In this document: positions 3,001 to 63,459 of the stretch, piece after piece
How positions within the stretch are numbered: the stretch's first letter is position 1
Layout: each line of letters opens with the position of its first letter
Assembly (NCBI RefSeq): GCF_964019385.1
Contig: NC_088643.1
Coordinates: 46,229,910 to 46,293,909 of the forward strand
DNA: 64,000 nt
Source: Sycon ciliatum
Lineage: Eukaryota; Porifera; Calcarea; Leucosolenida; Sycettidae
Direction of reading: 5' to 3'
Notes under the pieces: model-generated
Database searches by the model: none
What the model was told of the DNA's origin: nothing
Seen by the model: the letters and a program-made list of their open reading frames with translations, nothing else
Program-made: the position numbers and the translations under genes

Positions 3001-6000
3001 AAGTTGAAATTCCTCTGAGTCACAACGGAATTTGCCCAAGGTTTTCATCGTGTGCCTTTGGGTAACTTACTATGCACTTTATATTCTTATCGCTTGTTCT
3101 TTTTAAGGCAGTCCACAAATGTCGTCATGTCAGCCTTACCAACGTTATATTGAGTTGTGATCAGTCATGATTAGATACGTGATAGGACCAGGCAGTATGT
3201 ATTTTGCCTTCAGGAGGCAGTACAGTCACCAGTACCAATAATACTTTGTACTGTAAACTCGAAACCCAGCTGGTGACCTAACTTTGCTCGTGTGAAGTGA
3301 ATGCTTAGCGTGTATCAAATAGTGCCAGGTGTGTGTGTGTGTGTGTGTGTGCGTGCGTGCGTGCGTGCGTGCGTGCGTGTGTGTGTGTGTGTGTTTGTGT
3401 GTGTGCGTGCGTGCGTGTGCGTGTGTGTGTGTGTGTGTGTGTGTGTGTGCCATGTGTGTGTGTGTGTGTGTGTGTGTGTGTGTGTGTGTATGTGTGTGTT
3501 TGTGTGTGTTCATAGGTCTGATCGGCGTGTCCTACGCGCACGCGTTGACCTTCGACGAAAGGATCGACATGTCTTCGACGATTCGCCTGAGCCAGTCGCT
3601 GATTCTGCTCTGGAGTTTCTCTGACCCCATACATCCACTGGTTAGTTGCTGCTGCTTGTCATTAACACACCCATCTGCATGCACACTACACAGCATTGAG
3701 AGCATTGAGTTGTGGGGATAGGAGTGGTTTGTCAATCGCTGTTTGCCAGGCTCGCAGTGAGTATTATTTTTAGTCGCAGCAGGGTGAGTGACCCTGGCCG
3801 CATCTTTATGTTGGCGTCAAGGTGAGTGACCCTGTCGCATCTTTTGAGAGCCGGGTGGGCTGTGTGAGCCGCACTGGCAGGATGAGCCTGGTGAGCGAGA
3901 TTGACTCCCCTCTTTATTCAGTTATTTAAACTGAAGAGATGTGATATTGAATGTTGGTTATTGTGATACCAAGAGGAAAGTGAAGATGTGCCTCAGCATT
4001 GTGCAGCACAGCAGAAAAGAAGCAGAGGGCATGGGAGGGTGGGCTTTGAAGAGAGTCACCAGTCAGCCATGCAAATCTGAGCAGGAAGCAAACTGTGAAG
4101 TGTCCGGCGCGGCGCATGCGCCTTCTGTGTTAACTTATTTTTGCGCGCTCGCAAAAATTCATCAAAACATGCTTAATACAGGCTGAAATTCTGCTAGTTT
4201 TGTAACTGACACCCAACCATGCACCTCCTAGAACAAGAGAAGAAAACATTACGTGCAAGTTGCCTGCATATTATATACTCAAAGATTCTTCTAGTCTCGT
4301 GAAGTAGATAATTATTATAACTGGCAAATAGCGCCCAACATCAACTCCATGGTGACGACTGTGGATTGGTTGTACAGGACTCCTACTACAGTATAGGTAC
4401 ACCGGCGTATACTGGATTGCCACTGATCTCATCACACCTGGCCTAGACAATTAGCTTGCAGGATGTGACAGTATGAAACTCCGCATGGATAAGGATGGTA
4501 CTGGGTGGTTGAGGAGGGCTGCCGAAGACAATTCACGAAACACCATAGGATGTCCAGTTTCGTACCATAATAATTATTATGTGTTTGGGCATTGGGCGCA
4601 ATCCAACAGCACGGATTAAACAGCACAAATGCCTGGACTGTACCTGTACAGGTTACAGGGTCATGTTGAGAATCTGATCAATGTGCTTAGTTCACATGGT
4701 GGTGGGGCTACTGAGTTTGTAGATGTGGATTAAACTACACTACATTACACTGTGGTTTTCACTGCTTGTCATGCTTTTTGCTAGCTGCTACTTGAGGCTC
4801 CAGAGGATGTCACCGTGTTTGAGTTCTGCCCAACACATCCAAACATTGTGGCTGCGGGCTGTGTCAGCGGACAGGTACTAGTGTGAGAATGTGTTGCGCA
4901 ATACATACATATATTGCGCATGGAACCGTGTCTGGTTTTGTACGAGGCGAGAGTCCTTTCGTTCCCTGCGGTGCAATGAGCCACATGAAATAAAGATGCA
5001 GTACCAGCAATGTGATGTTGGCTTGCCTGGGCCTGGTTGACCGTAGTAGGCTGGGCTGTTGCTCCATTTTGAAATCCTATACCGGTACATGTATATGATG
5101 TATCTAACTGTTACCGTGAGCAGCAGAACATTGAAGATATAACACCCTGTGTTGCTAGATTGACATTGTGCTGCTTCGCAACAGTACATGGGATGGGGAT
5201 TATTTGCTGATATTTCGCTTTAAGATGGTATGCACAGAAGAAAATGCCCATTAGTCCAGAAATGTGCTCGGCCATGGATAGTAAGGGCCTGCCATAAGTT
5301 TTATATCCTCCGTGCATGTATACCTTTTGTTAACATTTTTTTGTCAATATCCGTTTCAGCTCGTCCTGTGGGACTTGTCAGATTATGACGGGAAGTTGAG
5401 CAACCACATGGCACTGACCAAGGACGGGAAGAGTGAAGGCGACGACGCTGCGAAGGTGGACACGAATCGTGAGCGTGACAAGGTGAGTAAGAAAAGTAGC
5501 TATGCTTTCGCCCAGTGCCAGTGCAGCGGTAACTCTTGGTAGTCCAAGTCGCTCCTGATCTTATCTTGCTGTTTCTTTATGTTGTCGTAGTGTTGGTGGC
5601 ATCAGAAACGACCTGAATCCACTGCTCTTGCATTGGTCGGATGTTACTCCTATTTAGGGGTGAAACAATTATACCGAATATTCGAATAGTCGTTTGGATT
5701 TTTCAAATATAATCGTACTCGGAATAAATCAGAGTACTCGCTCATACATGGTACATGCATTTGCCACAGAAGTCTGCATTTCAGAGCAGCAGTCAGCAGA
5801 TATTGATGTGCAGACTGTGTGGTGAACACTTGTACACTAGTAGAGAGAGCCCAAATGACCCACCAACCAATACACCCGAGAAAAGGACTGCCAATCGGTT
5901 CAATCAGGGTTGTATCATGTGATTTTTAAGGCCATTGGTGTGCGATTTTTAGGATATCAAGAATACTCGAATATTCGATCGGAGAAAATCAGAGTACTCG

Positions 6001-62581: not shown

Positions 62582-63459
62582 TCATGATGGAACATCCACA
62601 TTAATGGCGGCGGGATCTGTCTCTTGAACGTTACTTGCAGCAGCACTATCTGTATGGCCTTCAGCTTGCTTGTCTTGTTCATGTTCTTGCTCTTCGTCTT
62701 CATCTTCCTCCTCCTCCTCTCTGTCCACACCATGCTCTCTGTCGTATGCTGGATGCGCAAAATAGAGAAAAAGCATTGTTGCAAGCTGGGGGGATTTCCC
62801 AAACAACTATGTGTATGTAAGCGCGTGTGTGCATTGTGAGAGTGAGAGAGAGAGAGAGAGAGAGAGAGAGAGAGAGAGAGAGAGAGAGAGAGAGAGAGAG
62901 AGAGAGAGAGAGAGAGAGAGAGAGAGAGAGAGACACACACACACACATACACGCACACACACACACACACACACACATAGACTCAGATACTACTCGAGTG
63001 TGTGTGGGGAAGGGGGGGGGGGGGGCATGAAATGGACAGGAAAGTTTTGCAAATGAAAGGCGACAAGACTAAAATACCTTCAAACACATCCGGATACTGG
63101 CGTGAAAGCTTCCCTCGCAGCAGCCTACAATGCACATTTGCAAAACACAAGGCACATGATGATGTTTAGGGGGATATCATCAGAACGTACTACGAGCACA
63201 TCAAAACCAGGGAGTCGTAAAAGCCCGGGAGAGGACACGGCACACATTCCCAGAAAACATCTTTGCCTCGCGCTGCCGGGGAACGCTGCCAGGGAACGGT
63301 GTCGCGAGGCAAGGAAATTATTATTTTCGAAAATTGTGATGTCTTCTTGAAATACTAATTGGGACATTCTCCGATTTCTCTTAGAGCACGGAGACGATTG
63401 CTCCGTCGAGTCTTCTGATCTCTATTTTCATCCTCAATTCTTCCAGCTGCCTCACTCAT
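62582..63459 (-). CDS. Small protein with basic N-terminus and acidic tail (tentative)
   Basis: Not recognised. Proposed exons 63459-63366, 63113-63078, 62748-62582 total 297 nt (98 aa). Residues: MSEAAGRIEDENRDQKTRRS, an Arg-rich NRLRALREIGE helix, a LSRQYPDVFEAYDREHGVD segment, then a run of Glu/Asp (EEEEEDEDEEQEHEQDK) and TDPAAINVDVPS before the stop. The last exon, its acceptor (GCATCCAG) and the exon 2 donor look convincing. The exon 1 donor (GAAT/GTCCCA) and exon 2 acceptor are weak, so the middle may be wrong. Composition suggests a small nuclear or chaperone-like acidic protein, which is only a guess. Confidence 0.45.
62841..62977 (-). repeat. (GA)n followed by (CA)n; CT and TG on sense strand
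   Basis: About 92 bp of GA then about 45 bp of CA in the intron of the small minus-strand gene, upstream (sense) of the acceptor at 62749. Confidence 0.97.

Follow-up and report, generated by a model that had tools for sequence, protein, structure and literature searches.

The introns in a stretch of the genome of the calcareous sponge Sycon ciliatum (contig NC_088643.1, positions 46,229,910 to 46,293,909; 64,000 nucleotides (nt), here called the window and numbered from its first letter) contain microsatellites whose orientation raises a question. An inspection made without database searches, which we call the sequence-only reading, had stated that across six genes on both strands such repeats always read TG, TTG, CTG or CT on the message strand and often lie at the acceptor, the 3' splice site. 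Is this arrangement real, and what could cause it? The orientation bias of TG repeats in introns is real and beyond chance in the window, and so is the clustering of repeats at acceptors; known biases of transcription and splicing probably account for both.

Five genes were modelled in the window, DNAI3 (+), a protein kinase (-), G-gamma (+), a KIAA0319L-like gene (-) and eIF2D (+), with 37 introns, every one GT..AG and 37,006 nt in sum. All p-values given here are post hoc and refer to five genes in one window. On the sense strand of the introns, runs of at least 6 nt numbered 74 for TG and 13 for CA, 24 for CT and 10 for GA. At a length of at least 10 nt there were 22 TG runs in 10 introns and 8 CT runs in 2 introns, with neither CA nor GA, so that all intronic TG-type runs of this length in the 37 introns read TG on the message strand, as the sequence-only reading had claimed. 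Counted by intron, TG exceeded CA in 26 of 37 and fell below it in 3, with 8 ties (p = 1.5e-5, runs of at least 6 nt); for runs of at least 8 nt TG was ahead in 15 introns and CA in none (p = 6e-5). The excess survived the removal of any single gene (largest p = 0.016). At gene level it was seen in all four informative genes (sign test p = 0.125), and because two of these lie on the + and two on the - strand it is not an effect of the chromosome strand. Intergenic sequence served as a control and showed no bias, with 11 TG against 13 CA runs of at least 6 nt; runs of at least 12 nt read on the + strand there comprised 0 TG, 2 CA, 0 CT and 1 GA. For CT the word 'always' went too far: it was based on two assigned long loci, which contribute 8 of the 24 CT runs, and by intron CT led GA by 11 to 7, which is not significant (p = 0.48).

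All TG, TTG, CT and CTG tracts named in the sequence-only reading were present, displaced by at most about 15 bases, the one at 56300 being just a short CTG stretch. Together with loci absent from it, the repeats are:

3329 to 3489, + strand: TG repeats in DNAI3, ending 26 nt short of acceptor 3515
6304 to 6560, + strand: GTC, (TTG)61 and GTC in DNAI3, ending 8 nt short of acceptor 6568
9726 to 9804, + strand: TG repeats in DNAI3, 76 nt before acceptor 9880
22793 to 22810, + strand: CTG repeat in a DNAI3 intron, acceptor 940 nt away; newly noted
23204 to 23646, + strand: TG repeats, two loci in DNAI3 intron 22709-23750, at least 104 nt from the acceptor
34058 to 34123, - strand: TG repeats in kinase intron 33867-34849, 191 nt to the acceptor
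44405 to 44480, + strand: (CT)38 in the G-gamma intron, 1473 nt to the acceptor
47977 to 47989, - strand: 13-nt TG run in the KIAA0319L-like gene, 5 nt to acceptor 47972
49666 to 49708, - strand: TG repeat in the KIAA0319L-like gene, 27 nt to acceptor 49639
50081 to 50109, - strand: TG repeat in the KIAA0319L-like gene, 12 nt to acceptor 50069
52675 to 52918, - strand: long CT repeat in KIAA0319L-like intron 52494-53008, 181 nt to the acceptor
53573 to 53586, - strand: 14-nt CTG tract in the KIAA0319L-like gene, 17 nt to acceptor 53556
53989 to 54011 and 54100 to 54119, - strand: two CTG repeats in a single KIAA0319L-like intron
60888 to 60908, + strand: TG repeat in an eIF2D intron; newly noted
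61691 to 61717, + strand: TG run followed by G15 in an eIF2D intron; newly noted
62844 to 62977, no strand assigned: GA/CA repeats in the + reading, outside any supported gene

The last locus was excluded from the intron counts and included in the intergenic control. Some other repeats were noted in passing. A-rich repeats of contrary sense occur in DNAI3 introns, a (TAA)n at 7393-7408 and a 24-base-pair (bp) unit at 25417-25494, and an imperfect 12-bp repeat at 52150-52210 is TG-rich on the KIAA0319L-like message strand.

The six acceptors at which repeats had been reported within about 30 nt (3515, 6568, 47972, 49639, 50069 and 53556) are all AG intron ends in phase-consistent models. At acceptors 3515 and 9880 the model aligns without local gaps to solved DNAI3/WDR63 chains, which supports both junctions, and a Pfam K319L-like_PKD match spans the 53556 junction; junctions 6568, 47972, 49639 and 50069 were placed by reading frame and coding score only. 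In a placement test, 6 of 18 intronic repeat loci ended within 30 nt of an acceptor, where 0.78 were expected when loci were placed over all introns and 0.99 when each stayed in its own intron (p = 2.5e-4 to 3e-4 by the two schemes). The reported enrichment is thus borne out. One of the 18 loci lay within 30 nt of a donor. Without KIAA0319L the clustering is weaker (2/11, p = 0.038), and without DNAI3 it stands at 4/11 (p = 0.004). It was also found for loci of at least 20 nt (4/13, p = 0.003), for one locus per intron (6/14, p = 1e-4) and after removal of the three KIAA0319L CTG loci (5/15 within 30 nt, 0.58 expected, p = 1.5e-4). The CTG tract at 53573 (14 nt) was kept despite a cut of 15 nt, since the sequence-only reading had named it. 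Left outside the test were homopolymers, two 10-nt TG runs (15954 and 30649), an 11-nt TG run that falls in a masked stretch (21661), TG pieces of lesser length and imperfect repeats of longer period. Within the last 60 nt of the introns, runs of at least 6 nt were 15 TG to 0 CA and 6 CT to 0 GA.

What kind of acceptor tract do these repeats lie in? With repeats masked, the last 60 nt of the introns contain 40% T, 15% A, 22% G and 23% C; T makes up 29% of the intron bodies (positions more than 100 nt from the acceptor, 34 introns) and 30% of the donor side, and falls with distance from 46% beside the acceptor to 29% at -150 to -200. The dinucleotide AG is depleted, with an observed to expected ratio of 0.61 in the last 60 nt compared with 1.01 in bodies and 0.99 on the donor side, and GG stands at 0.46 and TG at 1.71 (TG 1.35 in bodies). 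Runs of at least 7 nt in the last 60 nt are 27:1 for G/T against A/C and 22:1 for C/T against A/G. Over positions -40 to -5, where the count covers 36 introns since one was unplaced at that time (37 in all other intron counts), the composition is T 42%, G 24%, C 21% and A 14%, and masking the repeats changes this to T 41%, G 22%, C 22% and A 15%. The human tract is poorer in G and richer in C. Here, G ranges from 19 to 28% and C from 19 to 25% across bins of the last 40 nt, near the body levels of 23% and 22%, so there is neither a depletion of G nor a rise of C. These Gs are not an artefact of the gene finder, because it scored G below T and C in this region.

At 21 of 37 acceptors no pyrimidine run in the last 40 nt exceeds 5 nt. 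The proposal that a repeat substitutes for the normal polypyrimidine tract therefore describes what is usual in these genes. Since the acceptors are U-rich with isolated Gs, the TG repeats found there resemble the far end of the genome's usual tract. The idea that the repeats were born from polypyrimidine tracts comes close to this, except that the tracts here are rich in U and UG and not of the C/U type. The AG-free stretch before the acceptor has a median of 94 nt at the six repeat acceptors and 36 nt at the other 31, as must follow from repeats without AG, which necessarily extend it. In the (TTG)61 intron no A is met from 15 nt upstream of the acceptor until 205 nt upstream, so its branch point is predicted to be remote or unusual.

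Intron bodies show a weaker skew of a different kind. The TA skew has a mean of 0.11 and is positive in 27 of 34 introns (p = 6e-6), the GC skew a mean of 0.03 and is positive in 22 of 34 (p = 0.013), and pooled body skews are positive in all five genes (TA 0.04-0.15, GC 0.02-0.05). Body runs of at least 7 nt number 131 G/T against 86 A/C (p = 0.003) and 104 C/T against 88 A/G (p = 0.28). The body skew is thus a keto (G+T) skew without significant pyrimidine bias. Intergenic runs are balanced (G/T 67 to A/C 64, C/T 71 to A/G 66), and base counts of six intergenic pieces share no common direction of skew. Sense homopolymers of at least 8 nt in introns are 6 G, 1 C, 1 A and 0 T, the 6:1 of G to C alone not being significant. 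Selection against purine repeats, which the sequence-only reading had offered as a cause, fits the last 60 nt only; for the intron bodies it was rejected in view of the keto skew, the run counts and the homopolymers. The sense poly-G runs lie at 7748-7758, 15963-15974, 23590-23600, 47495-47511, 51957-51970 and 61703-61717 and the sole intronic C run at 7670-7685; the G/C homopolymer runs are found 129-817 nt from acceptors. Human and mouse introns are skewed the same way, with more T than A and more G than C (PMC10030826), and vertebrate genes carry transcription-associated mutation asymmetries along the gene (PMC2927911).

The strand skews, AG depletion, clustering and orientation observed in the window are best explained by such known biases of splicing and transcription rather than by a novel type of element. 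We consider it likely that two ordinary biases, the strand skew of transcription and splicing and the demands on the acceptor tract, together yield both the orientation and the placement of the repeats. Along whole introns, the slight sense excess of T relative to A and of G relative to C would come from the known transcription-associated (and splicing-associated) skew, and seed tracts that slippage can extend would consequently be TG more often than CA. In the last 60-100 nt, splicing requires a U-rich tract that can be bound by U2AF-type proteins and tolerates no AG that might serve as an early acceptor. As transcripts, the repeats of TG, TTG, CTG and CT all contain U but lack AG, whereas AG occurs in two of their complements, (GA)n and (CAG)n, and U in none of the four. 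Near the acceptor only the U-containing, AG-free orientation could then grow, and a tract that tolerates isolated Gs, as the one here does, would allow TG and TTG repeats to grow inside it. The repeats would have originated by slippage, the tract may be read by U2AF or another UG-binding protein, and the opposite orientation is presumably selected against.

Several observations weigh against this account. Markov models of order 1, 2 and 3 on masked introns, which are partly circular, predict 37, 44 and 53 TG runs of 6 nt where 51 were observed; for runs of at least 8 nt they predict 4.2, 5.8 and 7.0 where 13 were observed. Since the models underpredict these longer runs, TG has lengthened beyond what low-order composition gives, a shortfall compatible with slippage lengthening seeds without proving it. 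Away from long repeats, the short-run ratio of TG to CA is 24:11 at more than 60 nt from the acceptor (p = 0.04) and 20:10 at more than 150 nt (p = 0.10), and no more than 4 introns hold long TG repeats distant from acceptors. Sense poly-T of at least 8 nt is absent from introns, with one poly-A. The locus at 62844-62977 would be a counterexample to the orientation bias if it lay within a + transcript. Finally, the skew may be due to mutation or to selection. On these figures the two-force account is firm near acceptors and weaker for intron bodies.

Could one of the two forces suffice? If strand-biased damage and repair during transcription set the orientation and splicing played no role, the keto skew of the bodies and the predominance of sense poly-G (6 of 7 G/C runs) would be expected, but it would not be expected that within 60 nt of the acceptor the bias climbs sharply, AG becomes scarce and repeats cluster; we regard transcription-associated mutation alone as very unlikely. 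Chance in one window combined with selective reading is an extremely unlikely cause. The finding is indeed post hoc and comes from five genes with 4 of 4 informative ones at p = 0.125, but a ratio of 26 to 3 introns that is stable to dropping any gene, next to a flat intergenic control, argues against it.

The acceptor repeats might instead be functional splicing elements, in which a CELF-, TDP-43- or PUF60-type protein reads the UG repeat and partly replaces the pyrimidine tract. The 6 of 18 loci within 30 nt of an acceptor suit this idea, as do the six repeat acceptors, none of which has a pyrimidine run longer than 5 nt, and the 13-nt TG run at 47977, which fills about half of the 25 nt past the last candidate A. 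A precedent is TDP-43, which binds UG tracts at the acceptor of CFTR exon 9, although there the bound repeat inhibits exon inclusion (PMC12171016). Acceptors without repeats are likewise U-rich and G-tolerant, so that no special element is required, and we judge this explanation rather unlikely. A bolder version is quite improbable: here the pyrimidine tract would have drifted to a UG-rich one read by a UG-binding factor, acceptor UG microsatellites would be working signals of variable length, and some branch points would lie about 200 nt off, as in the (TTG)61 intron. Pairing of the kind reported for teleosts, in which AC near the donor is said to pair with GT near the acceptor and aid splicing, is almost certainly not at work. 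GT repeats near acceptors are reportedly common to both systems, and two introns give weak hints of a partner: intron 22709-23750 combines a 9-nt CA run (22716-22724) 7 nt past the donor with the longest TG repeat, and intron 50069-51062 a 7-nt CA run 48 nt past the donor with TG 12 nt from the acceptor. The TG repeats of the former, however, come no closer to the acceptor than 104 nt. Among the four introns whose TG repeat comes within 30 nt of the acceptor, CA runs of at least 6 nt occur in two, measuring 6 nt in one and 7 nt in the other; the remaining two have none. Long AC/GT pairing between donor and acceptor was rejected because there are no CA runs of at least 10 nt in all 37 introns.

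The joint action of strand skew and acceptor demands remains our preferred explanation. If the bias holds genome-wide, repeat-rich introns would make it possible to tell apart two commonly confounded forces: transcription-linked mutation, with its keto skew along the whole intron, and the splicing demand for a U-rich, AG-free acceptor tract. Repeats within acceptor tracts, if variable in length, would be natural mutants for splicing strength.

The gene models underlying these counts were obtained within the window from a small gene finder, which scores codon usage and splice sites, plus homology:

1259 to 25814, + strand: DNAI3 (WDR63-like), 18 exons modelled, model without the N-terminal part
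29959 to 35460, - strand: protein kinase (MLK-like in the sequence-only reading), 6 exons modelled, 5' part not found
43430 to 46060, + strand: G-gamma, two exons, product ending in CLIL
47160 to 56852, - strand: KIAA0319L-like, 13 exons modelled
58739 to 62014, + strand: eIF2D, 3 exons, WH_eIF2D match (E 1.3e-26)

The best match of DNAI3 was to solved WDR63/DNAI3 chains (WD repeat domain 63, E 1.4e-78), the kinase matched PK_Tyr_Ser-Thr (E 5.7e-59), and the PKD exon of KIAA0319L matched its solved human counterpart (E 4e-58). The G-gamma domain match (E 8.2e-6, 26.2 bits) is slightly under the cut-off of 27.1, with a query made of exon 1 and a false short exon. A search of genome contigs with eIF2D, from which near relatives of the window were possibly excluded, gave no relatives, and no second locus of this species turned up. 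The sixth gene of the sequence-only reading, a small one on the - strand said to contain 62841-62977, could not be upheld: its first exon has a gene-finder score of 0.1, and the five open reading frame (ORF) pieces scanned have no Pfam hit above the cut-off, with one sub-threshold match (E 0.072). Gene-finder exons at 3822-3890, 15464-15486, 19072-19081, 23480-23497, 34477-34523, 44157-44188, 48288-48302, 48973-48997 and others were dropped for want of homology or frame support. Replacement exons were placed by hand from 4804, from 45954 and at 49076-49166, and exon edges were corrected. Two stretches were masked in the intron counts, 10200-15400 (a 40-bp satellite and neighbours) and 16790-22000 (a mobile element and neighbours). 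The satellite, an array at 10335-13896 in a DNAI3 intron, has about 89 copies of a 40-bp unit with 99% matching. The element, also in a DNAI3 intron (17932-21151, - strand), encodes reverse transcriptase and Phage_integrase-type recombinase domains, from which pair we take it to be DIRS-like; on its low-coordinate side are two arrays, each with 2 copies of a 58-bp unit (16949-17065 and 17595-17711). A further reverse transcriptase ORF lies at 38111-39392 (+ strand, RVT_1, E 1.6e-26), and near-identical translations occur in opposite orientations at 39737-40063 (-) and 42739-43050 (+). Searches of viral contigs with the window's two reverse transcriptase ORFs, where near relatives were possibly excluded, revealed no relatives.

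How does the window compare with known systems? A partial literature search with few terms found no earlier reports of such an intron bias in invertebrates. Teleost introns with AC...GT repeats have reportedly been described by Lin et al. in Genome Res.; the GT repeats near acceptors are shared with the window, but the long partner AC repeats are missing from its 37 introns. In CFTR intron 8 a (TG)mTn repeat likewise stands immediately upstream of the acceptor (PMC12171016). In CFTR a T tract comes next, and the repeat inhibits when bound; in the window, each of the four acceptors with TG repeats lacks a T run longer than 4 nt past its repeat. Short introns of Drosophila and eight further species show avoidance of AG and selection for pyrimidines in the polypyrimidine tract (PMC10946897). 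AG is depleted and T enriched before the acceptor in the window too, but its introns are mostly longer and G is not depleted relative to the bodies. Human AC/GT microsatellites within 5 kb of the transcription start site favour GT on the coding strand (3021 versus 2051 AC; Sawaya 2013, PMC3566118); GCT is preferred to AGC (617 versus 373), and AG and CT do not differ significantly (686 versus 719). TG, CTG and CT behave alike in direction here, but the human ratio is near 1.5 and concerns sequence on either side of promoters, whereas the window gives 74:13 for short and long runs pooled. The T-rich strand bias of human short tandem repeats peaks within 100 bp of exons and was tied by the authors to the polypyrimidine tract (PMC13174678, preprint). 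Its direction and its maximum beside the exon agree with ours; that study covered repeats tested for association with splicing in human cortex, whereas TG dominates in the window, with TG or TTG tracts at five acceptors. The window is thus a strong instance of an already known bias, in another genome.

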